The notes under the pieces: generated by a model
Database searches by the model: none
Seen by the model: only the letters and a program-made list of their open reading frames with translations
What the model was told of the DNA's origin: nothing
Source of the DNA: Oscillospiraceae bacterium
GTDB lineage: Bacteria; Bacillota; Clostridia; Oscillospirales; Oscillospiraceae
DNA length: 46,796 nucleotides
Reading direction: 5' to 3'
NCBI GenBank assembly: GCA_017535865.1
Contig: JAFXTM010000037.1
Span: 1-46,796, forward strand
Part shown: positions 18,318-27,058 of the stretch, piece by piece
How positions within the stretch are numbered: the first letter of the stretch is position 1
Layout: every line of letters begins with the position of its first letter
Translations under genes and position numbers: made by a program

Positions 18318-19520
18318 TCACACCAGACCGTTGAGGTATTCCACCGTGTAGCAGACGTACAGCGCGGCCGCGACGCGGAGCGCGTCCTCGTCAATGTCGT
18401 AGCGGGCGCTGTGCTGCGCGAGCAGCGTGTCGGGCAGCGCCGGGTTGCCGGTGCCGATGTAGGCGTAGGCGCCGGGGACGCGCAGGATGTACTCCGCAAA
18501 GTCGTCCCCGCCCAGCGAGGGCTGACGGGAACGAATCAGCTTGTCCTCCCCGAAGAGGGAGACGGCGACCCGCTGCGCTTCGGCCGTGGCAGCGGGGTCG
18601 TTGATCAGGGGCGAGGTGTTGTCGTTCCACGCGATCTCCGCCGTACCGCCGAAGAGCGCGGCCGTCTGCTTAACCAGCGCGTCCAGCTGCGCCTTCGTCT
18701 GCCGGCGCAGCTCCGGCGAAAAGACGCGTATCGTCCCCTCCAGCTCCGCCTCCTGGGCGATCACGTTGTAGGCGGTGCCGGCGCTGAGCTTGCCGATGCC
18801 GATGAGGACGTTCTCCATCGGGCTCGTACGGCGGGTGACGAGCGCCTGGGCCGCCACGACGATCTGGCTTGCGATATAGAGGGCGTCGACGCCGCGCTCG
18901 GGCGTGGAGACGTGCGCGCCCAGCCCGTGGACGCGGATGCGGAAAAAGTCCACGCTTGCGTTGTTGGCCCCGGGCATCAGCACCACGGAGCCGACCGGGA
19001 CGTTGGACGCCACATGAACGCCGAAGCTGCGCGTCGCACCGTCGATATCGCCGTCGGCAAGGAGAACGCGCGCGCCGTAGCCGACCTCCTCGCCCGGCTG
19101 CCAGGTGAGGATGACCCGGCCGGAAAAGCGCTCACGGTTCGCGTTCAGGATGCGGGCCGCGCCGATCAGCGCGGCGGTGTGCGCGTCGTGCCCGCAGGCG
19201 TGCATCCGCCCGGGATACAGGCTCTTATAGGGCACTTCGTTCTCCTGCTGGATGGGCAGCGCGTCGATGTCCGCGCGCAGCGCGATACAGCGGGGCTCGC
19301 CCTCGGAGGGGAGCGTCCCCTCGATCTCGGCGCGTACGCCCGTGACGGCGCAGCGGCGGTGACTCACGCCGATCGCGTCGAGCTCCTGCTCGATGCGCTG
19401 CGCGGTCCCCTCCTCCTCGCGCGCGAGCTCGGGATGGCGGTGAAAATGGCGGCGCAGCGCCACGACGTAGGCGTGGTCGGCGAGCACCTGGTCATACAGT
19501 TCCCTTTCCAGTTCGGTCAT
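18318..19520 (-). CDS. M20D amidohydrolase (N-acyl amino acid / peptide deacylase)
   Basis: A 400-residue M20D metallohydrolase. The dinuclear metal-site motifs are visible: MHACGHDAHTA (about 103-113), RADIDALPIQQENE before it, and PGEEVGYGAR (about 141-150); the dimerisation insert follows. Members cleave N-acyl or N-carbamoyl amino acids, indole-acetyl amino acids or aminobenzoyl-glutamate. It is the last gene after metQ in a methionine T-box operon, 71 bp downstream with an intervening hairpin, and starts after AAAGGAGG. The context suggests release of methionine from an N-acylated or conjugated form imported by MetNIQ; that substrate is inference. Confidence 0.9.
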   Translation of the reverse strand: MTELERELYDQVLADHAYVVALRRHFHRHPELAREEEGTAQRIEQELDAIGVSHRRCAVTGVRAEIEGTLPSEGEPRCIALRADIDALPIQQENEVPYKSLYPGRMHACGHDAHTAALIGAARILNANRERFSGRVILTWQPGEEVGYGARVLLADGDIDGATRSFGVHVASNVPVGSVVLMPGANNASVDFFRIRVHGLGAHVSTPERGVDALYIASQIVVAAQALVTRRTSPMENVLIGIGKLSAGTAYNVIAQEAELEGTIRVFSPELRRQTKAQLDALVKQTAALFGGTAEIAWNDNTSPLINDPAATAEAQRVAVSLFGEDKLIRSRQPSLGGDDFAEYILRVPGAYAYIGTGNPALPDTLLAQHSARYDIDEDALRVAAALYVCYTVEYLNGLV

Positions 19521-19591: not shown

Positions 19592-20518
19592 TTACTTCGC
19601 GCCGGCGGCCTCCTTGAGGGCGTCGACGGAGTCGAACTGCTTGGAGTAGAGAGTCAGGGGGGCCATTAGGGTGTCGCCGATGGTCTCGATCTCATAACCG
19701 GCCGCGTCGATCTCCTTGGCAAGATAGGCCTTGTGCTGGAAGGAGTTGAGGTCGATGTCGCCGCTGTTGAGGGCCTCGTTGGGCAGGTTGTAGGCGTCAA
19801 ATTCGACGAGCTCGATATAGATGCCGGCCTCCTGCTGGTCGAGGACATACTGGCAGGCGTTCCAGTGGTCGTTGGACGCGCCGCAGACGCCGACCTTCAC
19901 GACGGTTTTGCCGGCCTTGTCAGACTTGTAGCCGTCGATCAGAGCCACAAGCTCCTCGTTGGAGTACTCCGTGTTCGCATACTCAAAGGCGGGGATGAAA
20001 GCCTCGCTGTACTTGGCGATCAGGTACTGGCCGACGATGTCGGTCTGGAAGGCGGCCACGACGGTCTGATAGACCTCGTTGTCCTTGTCCTCGCTGCGGG
20101 CGACGATGACGTTCACGAAGGGGTTGCCGTCCTCGGTGGTGGCGCCGGCCTGGGACTCAATGGCCAGACCGTCGCGGGAGGGAACCAGACCGGTCGGAAT
20201 GGCGTAGGTGCCGTTGATGGTGGAGGCGCCGAAGTCGTCCAGCGTGGCGGGCAGGGTATTGGCCTGCGTGGGGACGATCTCGATGTTGTAGTGATAAGCG
20301 GTGATATCCTTAAGCTCCGGGACCCAGCCGGCGGCGGGATCGACGTCGATCAGGCCGACGGACTCGAGCAGCTTGATGGCGCGGCCGCCGTTGGTGGCGT
20401 CGTCGGGGATGCCGATGAGGATGTCGTGGGCGGCGGAGGCGGAGGTGCTCAGCACGGGGGAGATGGCCAGCACGGCGAAGAGCAGGATGCTGACAAGGGC
20501 GATGAGTTTCTTGGACAT
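19592..20518 (-). CDS. metQ: Methionine-binding protein MetQ, circularly permuted
   Basis: A 308-residue exported solute-binding protein of the NlpA/MetQ family. After a signal peptide (1-29, ending STSASA) residues 33-178 match the segment that is C-terminal in usual MetQ (GIPDDATNGGRAIKLLE, INGTYA, NPFVNVIVAR). A new linker (about 179-205) follows, then residues 206-308 match the usual N-terminal half (KVGVCGASNDHW, ELVEFDAYNLPNEALNSGDI, SFQHKAYL, YSKQFDSVDALKEAAGAK). The end GAK joins exactly onto the DILIGIP start, so the order is circularly permuted with nothing lost. There is no lipobox cysteine, so the mature protein may not be lipid-anchored. The ATG has AAAGGAGA upstream and lies 26 bp after metI. 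Confidence 0.93.
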   Translation of the reverse strand: MSKKLIALVSILLFAVLAISPVLSTSASAAHDILIGIPDDATNGGRAIKLLESVGLIDVDPAAGWVPELKDITAYHYNIEIVPTQANTLPATLDDFGASTINGTYAIPTGLVPSRDGLAIESQAGATTEDGNPFVNVIVARSEDKDNEVYQTVVAAFQTDIVGQYLIAKYSEAFIPAFEYANTEYSNEELVALIDGYKSDKAGKTVVKVGVCGASNDHWNACQYVLDQQEAGIYIELVEFDAYNLPNEALNSGDIDLNSFQHKAYLAKEIDAAGYEIETIGDTLMAPLTLYSKQFDSVDALKEAAGAK

Positions 20519-20544: not shown

Positions 20545-21258
20545 TTATTCGACTTCGATATTGTGCCGGAACAGGGCCCGATTGGTGGTGCGTCGTGCCA
20601 GCGCGTTCCCGATGCCCTGGAGCAGAGAGACGAAGACCAGCAGCACGACGACGCAGACGTTGACGATATCCTGATGGTGGAGGTTCTGCCCGTAGTTGAT
20701 GGCGAAGCTCCCGATGCCGCCGGCCCCGACCGCGCCGGCCATGGTGGTCAGGCCGATCAGGCTGATGGCGGTGATGGTGACGGCCCGGATCAGATCGGGT
20801 ACGGACTCGTGCAGATAGACACGGAAGACGATGCCGAGCTTCCCGCTGCCCATGGCCGCCGCGGCCTCGATCTTGCCGGGGCTGACGTTCGCCAGCGCGG
20901 CCTCAACCTGCCGGGTGAAGAAAGGCGTCGCGCCGAAGACCAGGGGGACGATCGCACCCTTGACGCCGATCGCCGTGCCGACGATCCAGCGCGTCAGCGG
21001 GATCAGGAAGATCAGCAGGATCACAAAGGGGATCGAGCGGAACACGTTGGTCACGATGTTCACGAAGTTGTAGACCGCGGCGTTCCCGGCGATGCCGCCC
21101 TTCTTCGTCACGGTCAGCAGCACCCCGAAGACGCCGCCGAGCACGAGCGTGAAGCCGCCCGCGATCAGGAACATCTGTCCGGTAGCCAGACAGCTCGACC
21201 AGAATTTCCCGCTGTAATCCACCACGTTCGGCATGATACTCGCCAGCCATTCAGCCAT
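20545..21258 (-). CDS. metI: Methionine ABC transporter permease MetI
   Basis: A 237-residue permease with about five membrane helices, slightly longer than the usual 217-220. The coupling helix/EAA loop that docks MetN is clear (EAAAAMGSGKLGIVFRVYLHES, about residues 130-151, shown here as one motif in two parts: EAAAAMGSG and KLGIVFRVYL). The conserved SLIGLTTMAGAVGAGGIG follows. The start overlaps the end of metN by 8 nt, so the two are translationally coupled. It acts in the cell membrane with MetN and MetQ to import methionine. Confidence 0.95.
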   Translation of the reverse strand: MAEWLASIMPNVVDYSGKFWSSCLATGQMFLIAGGFTLVLGGVFGVLLTVTKKGGIAGNAAVYNFVNIVTNVFRSIPFVILLIFLIPLTRWIVGTAIGVKGAIVPLVFGATPFFTRQVEAALANVSPGKIEAAAAMGSGKLGIVFRVYLHESVPDLIRAVTITAISLIGLTTMAGAVGAGGIGSFAINYGQNLHHQDIVNVCVVVLLVFVSLLQGIGNALARRTTNRALFRHNIEVE

Positions 21259-22333
21259 GCTCGATCACCTCCACGATCACGTTGTTTTCACATAGATGTT
21301 GGATGGCGGCCCGGCGCTTTTCCATATCGCCGCCGACCAGTACGATCAGGCCGCCGAGGGGACTGCCCTGCAGGAGCTCGAGGCTTCCCAGCAGGATATT
21401 CATGTTCACGCCGTAGAGGCGGGACACTTCGGAGATCAGGGCCTCGCCCACGCAGTCCTTGTTGTAGGTGCAGCGGATCAGCGTCCCGCCGCCCGAGAGC
21501 ACCTCGGACTGCTCCTCGATGAGCTTGTTGATGCGCCCGAGACCGGAGGAGCTGTCGACAAACTTGCGGGTGATGGCCGCCTGCGGCGCGGAGAAGACCT
21601 CGTACACGCCGCCCTGCTCGACCACGCGGCCGCTCTCCATGACGGCCACCTTGCTGCAGATGGACTTGACCACCGCCATTTCGTGCGTGATCAGCACGAT
21701 CGTGAGGCCGAGCCTACGGTTGAGCTCCTTCAGCAGCCGGAGGATGGACTCCGTGGCGTCCGGGTCCAGCGCGGAGGTCGCCTCGTCCGAGAGCAGGATG
21801 CGGGGGTTGTTGGCCAGCGCGCGGGCGATGGCCACGCGCTGCTTCTGCCCGCCCGAGAGCTCGGAGGGATAGGCGTTGGCCTTCTCGCGCAGGTCCACCA
21901 GATCCAGCAGCTCCAGCACGCGCGCGCGGATGGCCGCCTTGCTCAGACCGCTGTGCCTGAGGGGGTAGGAGATGTTCTCAAAGACGCTGCTGCGGTCGAG
22001 GAGGTTGAAATGCTGGAAGATCATACCCATGCTGCCCCGCAGCTGCCTGAGCTGCTTCTCGCTGAGCGCCGTCTCCGCTTCGCTCCCCTCCTGCCGACAG
22101 AAGGCGCGGCCGCTCTCGAAGCGGACCGTGCCGAAGCCCTTGACGCGGAGCGTGCCGGCGTCCGGCCGCTCGAGGAGGTTGATGCAGCGGACCAGCGTGC
22201 TCTTGCCGGCGCCGGAATAGCCGACGATGCCGTAAACGTCGCCCTCCCGGATCTCGAGGCTCACGTCCTCCACCGCACGGATCACGCCCTCGGGCCCGGC
22301 AAAGCTCTTGTACAGCGACTGCAGTTCGATCAT
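21251..22333 (-). CDS. metN: Methionine ABC transporter ATPase MetN with NIL domain
   Basis: A 360-residue ATPase. The start at 22333 gives MIELQSLYKSF and follows GGGAG; longer frames run into the T-box terminator. Walker A is GYSGAGKST, signature LSGGQKQRV, Walker B ILLSDEATSALD. Residues about 270-360 form the NIL/ACT-like regulatory domain (TLIRCTYNKDCVGEALISEV) that in E. coli binds methionine and shuts the transporter when the cell is replete (trans-inhibition). A short insertion near residue 70-85 follows the A-loop region. First gene of the T-box-controlled metNIQ-M20 operon. Confidence 0.96.
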   Translation of the reverse strand: MIELQSLYKSFAGPEGVIRAVEDVSLEIREGDVYGIVGYSGAGKSTLVRCINLLERPDAGTLRVKGFGTVRFESGRAFCRQEGSEAETALSEKQLRQLRGSMGMIFQHFNLLDRSSVFENISYPLRHSGLSKAAIRARVLELLDLVDLREKANAYPSELSGGQKQRVAIARALANNPRILLSDEATSALDPDATESILRLLKELNRRLGLTIVLITHEMAVVKSICSKVAVMESGRVVEQGGVYEVFSAPQAAITRKFVDSSSGLGRINKLIEEQSEVLSGGGTLIRCTYNKDCVGEALISEVSRLYGVNMNILLGSLELLQGSPLGGLIVLVGGDMEKRRAAIQHLCENNVIVEVIEHG

Positions 22334-22382: not shown

Positions 22383-22662
22383 GAAAAAAGAAAACCGCCC
22401 TTACACACGTAAGGACGGACAATATCCGCGGTACCACCTTGCTTCGCAGCCGTATCACACGACTGCCTCCATAGCGCGCCAACACGCGCATCCTCTGTAA
22501 CGGGAGTACCCGTCGGACGCTTGGTTTCCTTCGCGCCCGCTGCTCCGAGACCATGTTCGCCCGCCTTGCTCCTATCCCTTTTCAGCTGCCGGGATTCTCT
22601 GTAAAGACCTCCGGTGGGTTACTCTTCTCTTCCTCGCCATTGTGGGGTGATGTGAAGTTGAT
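22383..22662 (-). promoter_or_regulatory. T-box riboswitch with methionine (AUG) specifier
   Basis: On the minus strand the leader has the Stem I features AAGAGTAACC and CAGAGAATCC, a specifier region CGAACATGG whose ATG lies at 22554-22552, the CCCGTTA motif, and the T-box AAGGTGGTACCGCG (22440-22427) that pairs with the NCCA end of uncharged tRNA. It is followed by terminator CCGTCCTTAC/GTAAGGGCGG (22418-22395, one G-U pair) and TTTTCTTTTTT. Uncharged tRNA-Met should favour the antiterminator and switch on metNIQ. The promoter is directly upstream. Confidence 0.93.
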
Positions 22663-26309: not shown

Positions 26310-26867
26310 TTACTTTTGCAGGTCCTCGCCGCGGATGTATTTGCCGAGCGGCTTCCAGAGCAGCGCGCCGACGAGCAGGCAGACCAGCATGTCGATGAGC
26401 ATGTAGCTGCCGTTATAGAGCAGGGAATAGAACCACGGGCTGTGCATGGTCATGCCGAAGAAGGTCTCGGGCATATACTCGCCCCAGACGGTCGCGCCCA
26501 CAACGTAGTGGATCAGCAGGCGGGCCAGGCAGCCCACGACGATGCCGACGAAAAAGCCGTTCTTTTGCTTGTGAAACAGACCTGCCAGACCGAGCGCGGT
26601 ATAGGCCACGATGTAGTCGCCCAGAATGGACTGCCAGCCCCAGGCGTAGGCCCCGTCGAGCAGGAGCTGCAGCACGGAGTAGACGAAGCTCGCGAGAATG
26701 CCGGGGCCGAAGCCCCACCGGGCGCAGTAGAGGAAGATGGGCAGCATGGCCACGGTAATGGAGCCGCCCTGAGGCAGGCGAAAGAGCTTCAGATAGCTGA
26801 GGATCTGCGCGAGGGCCACAAAGACGGCGCCCTCGGTCAGCGCGCGGAGAGTGAGATTCTTTTTCAT
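26310..26867 (-). CDS. thiT: Thiamine ECF transporter S component ThiT
   Basis: A 185-residue membrane protein with six hydrophobic helices. The family motifs LPQGGSITVAMLPIFLYCAR (about 32-51) and GWQSILGDYIVAYT (about 77-90) match ThiT, which binds thiamine and docks with the shared EcfA-A'-T module encoded elsewhere. A TPP riboswitch and terminator precede it, which fixes the substrate assignment. GGAGGT-like GAGGTAAAC lies before the ATG. Single-gene unit. Confidence 0.94.
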   Translation of the reverse strand: MKKNLTLRALTEGAVFVALAQILSYLKLFRLPQGGSITVAMLPIFLYCARWGFGPGILASFVYSVLQLLLDGAYAWGWQSILGDYIVAYTALGLAGLFHKQKNGFFVGIVVGCLARLLIHYVVGATVWGEYMPETFFGMTMHSPWFYSLLYNGSYMLIDMLVCLLVGALLWKPLGKYIRGEDLQK

Positions 26868-26903: not shown

Positions 26904-26941
26904 GAAGACAAAACCGCAGGTCCAAAAAATGAACCTGCGGT
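26904..26941 (-). terminator. Expression-platform terminator of the TPP riboswitch
   Basis: On the minus strand ACCGCAGGT (26941-26933) pairs with ACCTGCGGT (26921-26913), followed by TTTGTCTT. It should form when TPP is bound. Confidence 0.85.
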
Positions 26942-26952
26942 AAAGGCCTTCA

Positions 26953-27042
26953 CGGTTTCCTACGCCGGCATTATCCGGATCAGGTTCCAGGGTTTCAGAG
27001 CTCGCTTACTCTGTCTCAGCCGGGAAGACCCAGCGCCCCTTG
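26953..27042 (-). ncRNA. TPP (THI-box) riboswitch aptamer
   Basis: On the minus strand the conserved elements appear in order: GGGGCGCTGGGT, GGCTGAGA, ACCCTGGAACCTGATCCGGA and TAATGCCGGCGTAGGAA. It is a textbook thiamine pyrophosphate aptamer upstream of thiT, turning it off when TPP is plentiful. Confidence 0.96.
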
Positions 27043-27058
27043 TTCTGTTGACAAAAAC

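Follow-up and report, generated by a model that had tools for sequence, protein, structure and literature searches.

The chain of a type II binding protein goes back to lobe 1 after lobe 2 and ends there as a C-terminal tail. The two substrate-binding domains of GlnPQ, SBD1 and SBD2, stand in tandem within one chain. Both are named in PMC6450668, where the hinge is described as the most defining feature of the clusters of substrate-binding proteins (SBPs). In the MetQ of Neisseria meningitidis (NmMetQ), methionine is contacted by R156, N213 and N238 on one lobe and by Y81, F98, H100 and Y103 on the other (PMC6739813). A natural circularly permuted SBP was described with TpMglB-2 (Tp0684) of Treponema pallidum, termed ‘Type Ic / Cluster Bc’ (PMC4990184). 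It is probably the binding protein of an ABC importer, and its ligand binding and conformational change were shown experimentally (PMC4990184). TpMglB-2 is a type I sugar-binding protein in which strands of the N-lobe sheet were moved to the C-terminus, adding a fourth crossover, and it forms one permuted family with two clades (PMC4990184). Permuted halves of the T. maritima ribose-binding protein were engineered and yield separate lobes (PMC9815098). The same paper, citing Fukami-Kobayashi (1999), names C-terminal helix swapping as a necessary step to the hinge-bending motion of binding proteins. In the open-licence literature, outside of which most subscription papers lie, the titles and abstract openings of the papers listed report no permuted MetQ, and TpMglB-2 was the only natural permuted binding protein found. 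One open-licence paper contains both ‘MetQ’ and ‘circularly permuted’ (PMC8804523, by its title an imaging review), and the main text of a permutation survey (PMC12667903) has neither ‘MetQ’ nor ‘NlpA’.

Here, we analyzed a stretch of 46,796 nucleotides from a gut bacterium of the Oscillospiraceae (the window), for which an earlier note, made from the letters of the DNA, had described a MetQ with swapped halves. The protein, termed cpMetQ, matches PF03180 (MetQ/NlpA) as its sole Pfam family with 180 bits against a curated cut-off of 27 (E 5.6e-53). The better of two stretches pairs residues 35-178 with profile positions 100-236; the second, located by coordinates in the genome search, follows downstream in the same frame and pairs residues ~207-305 with positions 1-98. 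A collinear match to the whole PF03180 profile is absent in the native protein, which shows these two stretches in swapped order. Aligned with E. coli MetQ (4yah), as the note had suggested, the two halves likewise match in exchanged order, with query residues 196-304 on chain residues 22-130 and query residues 35-163 on chain residues 133-256. Altogether, 22 distinct solved sequences match cpMetQ, 21 of them as two stretches and one as a single half, and the halves are swapped in all three solved-sequence alignments listed. None of these 22 solved relatives spans cpMetQ or either permuted profile as one full stretch; all matches are partial.

For a rotation test, a canonical profile was built from 97 of the 106 canonical MetQs among the loci collected. 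Native cpMetQ reaches 145.6 bits and covers profile positions 101-240, about half, while the mature chain rotated at residues 178-204 gives one match over positions 1-240 with 253.2 bits. Over 139 rotations of the mature chain the median is 193.3 bits, and the best 12 of 139 start within residues 178-204. The best rotations fall inside the linker, where a natural permutant is expected to have them. The residue ranges given by the note agree with these results, as does its new linker of about 27 residues between the old ends (residues ~179-205). Its junction of EAAGAK with DILIGIPDD is also correct, and the site of the break corresponds to ...LKDG-x-IAIPND... in canonical MetQ. The reading frame is intact, with an ATG start, a stop and AAAGGAG ahead of the start. 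Together with the occurrence of the same order in many genomes, the rotation test supports a natural circular permutation with its break at an inter-lobe connection, as had been claimed. The cut-off of the NCBI MetQ model TIGR00363 is missed by cpMetQ (150.7 versus 228.85 bits), which is expected because the match is split, although an unpermuted relative (L074) falls short of it as well (174.8 bits). A regex scan detected no lipobox Cys in the signal peptide of cpMetQ; the source genome contains a match to lgt. By a crude regex, the lipobox is mixed among permuted MetQs, being present in L037, L041 and L071 and absent in the protein of the window. The features of the locus are listed in Table 1.

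Table 1. Features of the cpmetQ locus in the window, with the evidence for each.
Feature	Position	Strand	Evidence and remarks
M20 amidohydrolase, next gene downstream	18318..19520	-	Pfam Peptidase_M20; TIGR01891 315.9 bits, cut-off 153.75
cpmetQ, circularly permuted MetQ	19592..20518	-	308 aa; Pfam, solved-structure matches, rotation test
Old N-terminal half (lobe 1)	19595..19903	-	residues 206-308; PF03180 profile 1-98
Linker from old C- to old N-terminus	19904..19984	-	residues 179-205
Old C-terminal half (lobe 2 and C-terminal tail)	19985..20422	-	residues 33-178; PF03180 profile 100-236
Presumed second inter-lobe connection	20069..20098	-	residues 141-150, after VNVIVA; lobe assignment in part from general knowledge of the fold
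Signal peptide, AxA-type	20429..20518	-	residues 1-30, by eye; lipobox Cys absent
metI, permease	20545..21258	-	Pfam BPD_transp_1
metN, ATP-binding protein with NIL domain	21251..22333	-	start read at MIELQSLYKSF; Pfam ABC_tran and NIL on a longer ORF
T-box leader (RF00230)	22408..22643	-	Rfam 108.8 bits, gathering 93

The search of related genomes for the same order covered 101 genomes of the genus including the source genome, 88 of which have any PF03180 match. The order of the window was found in 17 of the 101, a second permuted type in five, a third order in one and an in-frame double MetQ in five; one genome (G070) carries both a double and a permuted MetQ. Among the 17, nine (window counted) were read at residue level and the remaining eight were assigned from coordinates, while all five second-type, the one third-order and all five double proteins were read at residue level. 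In 8 of the 17 genomes the permuted protein is the sole PF03180 match. A similarity search of genome contigs with the window protein fetched 77 loci, of which 39 show the order of the window and three the third order. They are titled Oscillospiraceae, Ruminococcaceae, Lachnospiraceae, Christensenellaceae, Clostridia and Erysipelotrichaceae, many come from ruminant guts and nearly all are metagenome-assembled genomes (MAGs); among the loci with the same order, L065 (Holdemanella porci) carries the title of a strain. Across 391 genomes of the class, the first-lineage profile at E 1e-38 detected the type of the window in two (G000 and G762), and the second-lineage profile at E 1e-60 detected the second type in 17, all with E 4.2e-142 or better. 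With the first-lineage profile alone, 398 genomes of the phylum yielded two second-type proteins (G141 and G394), the latter from a genome counted among the 17. Linear profiles under-score permuted proteins, so that further ones may hide in annotations.

The second permuted lineage (cp2) is cut at the same LKDG-x-IAIPND site as the first (cp1), but the linkers differ. After removal of exact copies, 180 of 203 re-ordered MetQ entries were kept for a tree, in which a branch with SH-aLRT 100 sets the second lineage apart from all other rows, at a large distance from the first. A single origin of both lineages was rejected on 59 chosen rows of the 180 (lnL 216 lower, p-AU 0.0003). The computation shows that the two lineages arose independently.

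The third order (L071, L073 and L075) is cut after VNVIVAR and keeps the permuted linker. These proteins consist of a signal peptide, the last ~30 residues of the old C-half with the cp linker, the N-half and the remainder of the C-half, and they end shortly past the VAR motif; the cut site corresponds to residues 141-150 of cpMetQ. L071 shares 74% and 77% identity with the window protein in two blastp segments and 84% in the best tblastn segment. On the DNA level, L071 and L036 stay collinear across metI and the signal peptide (82%); the two inner blocks have then traded places (84% and 89%), after which collinearity resumes (76%). L128:3035-4057 is the same gene as L071, with the third order and collinear flanks. 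The retained permuted linker points to a permuted parent of the third order. A single origin of the third order was rejected on 63 chosen rows of the 180 (lnL 86 lower, p-AU 0.0004), and the partner-gene tree likewise separates L071 from L073/L075. The third order arose twice, in L071 and in L073/L075 as separate events. The groups in both AU tests, on the two lineages and on the third order, were chosen after the first tree had been viewed, for which the AU test does not account; the differences in likelihood are large. Compared with the earlier note, the finding is wider in scope: the family is old, its permutation originated twice independently, and secondary re-permutations followed.

The closest unpermuted relatives are L074, L076, L077 and L079, the last of which is fused behind metI. 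Common to all four are an insert where the later cut lies and an extension of the C-terminus that resembles the linker, and L074 reaches up to 66% identity to the window protein in its best segment. It is possible, and we suggest it only tentatively, that the canonical order of these four is derived, i.e. that they returned from the permuted order and carry the junction insert and the extension as scars. Both scars are present in all four. In the free MetQ tree, from which seven near-copies had been removed, the four lie inside the permuted clade, with bootstrap 97 for the four and 99 for a mixed group of 18 rows. They are also nested among permuted rows in the free partner-gene tree, which included 65 of the 69 loci that have metN as well as metI. 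Later partner-gene trees and tests excluded L036 and L126 (paralogous metNI) and L097, L082, L085 and L089 (long branches). However, one clade of permuted rows is not rejected, with p-AU 0.068 for MetQ, 0.67 for MetN and MetI and 0.51 for all three genes, and in the two latter tests the constrained tree, overlooked by the free search, even outscored the free tree. Moreover, a pre-adaptation, with insert and extension preceding the permutation, accounts for the same features of the four.

Tandem duplicated MetQ, for which the earlier note had proposed a search as an intermediate, occurs in the genus. Five loci (L115-L119, from G007, G033, G038, G082 and G070) encode a complete MetQ twice within a single frame of 524-548 aa from the chosen start, and in the 180-row tree such doubles arose several times within the genus. 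They show that tandem forms occur. Descent of the permuted lineages from present-day double MetQs is unsupported; the doubles branch elsewhere, are sister to neither lineage and are not direct parents of the lineage of the window. At L080:616-2317 and L131:1078-2769, two separate metQ genes are adjacent, possibly a pre-fusion stage. Other fusions were also observed. The MetI-MetQ fusion of L079 (L079:5167-6852, Acholeplasmatales assembly) is a 562-aa frame with canonical MetQ, and a 595-aa frame at L120:1233-3017 has, by eye, an amino-acid-type substrate-binding-like stretch followed by canonical MetQ.

All seven methionine-contact positions of NmMetQ are present in cpMetQ. R46, N102 and N136 in the old C-terminal half correspond to R156, N213 and N238, and Y243, F260, H262 and Y265 in the old N-terminal half correspond to Y81, F98, H100 and Y103. 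The mapping rests on motifs, since the published contact spacings of 58 and 27 differ slightly from those of E. coli (57 and 25). The seven contacts are kept in all 44 first-lineage rows, except for Y103 with one F (43/44), and in 23/23 second-lineage and 3/3 third-order rows. In 96 canonical rows used as a control, Y81 is Y in 85, Y103 is Y in 73 and N238 is N in 90; these positions are more variable there than in the permuted rows. Four close pairs gave dN/dS values of 0.19, 0.11, 0.27 and 0.24, and a fifth pair yielded no value. The permuted MetQ is under purifying selection, as the computation shows.

The setting in a metNIQ operon, as noted earlier, was recovered: metN, metI and the T-box lie upstream of cpmetQ, and the operon arrangement was read from the gene order. 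The best NCBIfam match of metN is MetN (TIGR02314, 349 bits), under its cut-off of 499.7, and metI matches MetI (PRK10782, 184.9 bits), under its cut-off of 212. The specifier loop of the T-box aligns as GAA-C-AUG-G, which suggests AUG (Met) as the specifier codon. Of the ORFs listed, with duplicates counted, metN and/or metI adjoins 50 of 51 in the first lineage, 35 of 36 in the second and all 4 of the third order. Two ORFs lack such a neighbour: the available DNA of L062 stops with the gene itself, and next to L192 neither gene was detected. Elsewhere in the window, a TPP riboswitch (26940-27048, minus strand) precedes a gene for a membrane protein (26310-26867), which presumably resembles the thiamine transporter ThiT.

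That cpMetQ binds a different amino acid, or methionine in N-acyl or dipeptide form, instead of free methionine is unlikely. The product of the M20 amidohydrolase gene, which adjoins cpmetQ and many relatives, though not all, could cleave imported conjugates and set an amino acid free. On the other side, the seven contacts are kept, the T-box specifier reads as Met and MetN contains a NIL domain. Very probably, judging from the sequence, cpMetQ is a genuine, working and naturally circularly permuted MetQ of a methionine MetNI importer. Its single polypeptide, with the old C-terminal half first, a linker of ~27 residues and the old N-terminal half last, most likely adopts the two-lobed fold typical of type II binding proteins. 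It would hold methionine via the same seven contact residues and would hand it to MetNI.

The motif VNVIVAR, which contains N238, closes lobe 2. If the chain returns to lobe 1 after this motif, the cut of cp1 and cp2 falls in the first inter-lobe connection and that of the third order in the second; the published contact positions and the topology usual for type II proteins thus point to cuts at both inter-lobe crossovers. Mean-field couplings of the C-tail with the N-half are 1.37-1.48 times expectation over five cut-offs and those with lobe 2 are 0.62-0.92 times expectation, a signal in the expected direction but weak at Neff 84. With the new ends in the first inter-lobe strand, each lobe is probably continuous and the chain of cpMetQ probably crosses between the lobes only once, after VNVIVAR, instead of twice. 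From these sequences, we infer a single covalent hinge and continuous lobes in every permuted form encountered. It is reasonable to suppose that the permutation changes how opening and closing are coupled, as the earlier note had put forward.

A single covalent hinge could also allow an exchange of lobes between chains, and the permuted chain might work only as a domain-swapped dimer, in which lobe 2 closes on lobe 1 of another molecule. We regard this as very unlikely, given that the second connection and the linker are retained, for which an intramolecular fold is simplest. An artefact of assembly or annotation, either a merger of two normal metQ copies, which the earlier note had named as its refuting case, or a chimeric contig, can be dismissed despite the fragmented source assembly (118 contigs, 80.5% complete), because independent assemblies share order and linker: 16 more genomes of the genus have this order, 39 of 77 loci from other records show it too, with L065 titled as a strain, the linker is conserved, dN/dS is 0.11-0.27, and copies of the second lineage stand in a one-contig (G873) and a two-contig (G715) genome.

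Taking the natural permutation as given, we slightly favour a view of MetQ as a ring of sequence which was repeatedly reopened, in all cases observed at one of its two inter-lobe connections. The first connection would have been opened twice (cp1 and cp2) and the second twice, starting from cp1 (L071; L073/L075), and spirochaetes and Acholeplasmatales may have regained the canonical order. With each opening, the two-crossover form would have given way to continuous lobes with a single covalent hinge. If this holds true, the double crossover, deemed necessary for hinge bending by others, would be dispensable in working transporters. Most likely, MetQs lost one crossover several times while the site and the transporter genes were kept, which would provide a natural test of whether the crossover is necessary. 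Permuted, re-permuted (up to 84% identity) and unpermuted (up to 66%) relatives form a ready series for studies of hinge mechanics.

Among the known systems, MetQ/NlpA (PF03180, TIGR00363; E. coli 4YAH, N. meningitidis 3IR1/6CVA) is closest. Rotated cpMetQ is homologous to it over the full length, shares its contact residues and has a MetNI-type partner, but its halves are exchanged and joined by a new linker. Like the SBDs of GlnPQ, the double MetQs (L115-L119) have two binding domains per chain; the GlnPQ domains are unpermuted, unlike cpMetQ, and the doubles are independent side branches. In the engineered halves of the T. maritima ribose-binding protein the permutation makes each lobe continuous, as it probably does in cpMetQ, which is in contrast a natural full-length protein. 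TpMglB-2 shares with cpMetQ that it is a natural permuted SBP. However, cpMetQ does not fit the Type Ic class: it matches PF03180, is cut at the hinge connection, is expected to lose a crossover and belongs to a family with at least two independent origins of the permutation.
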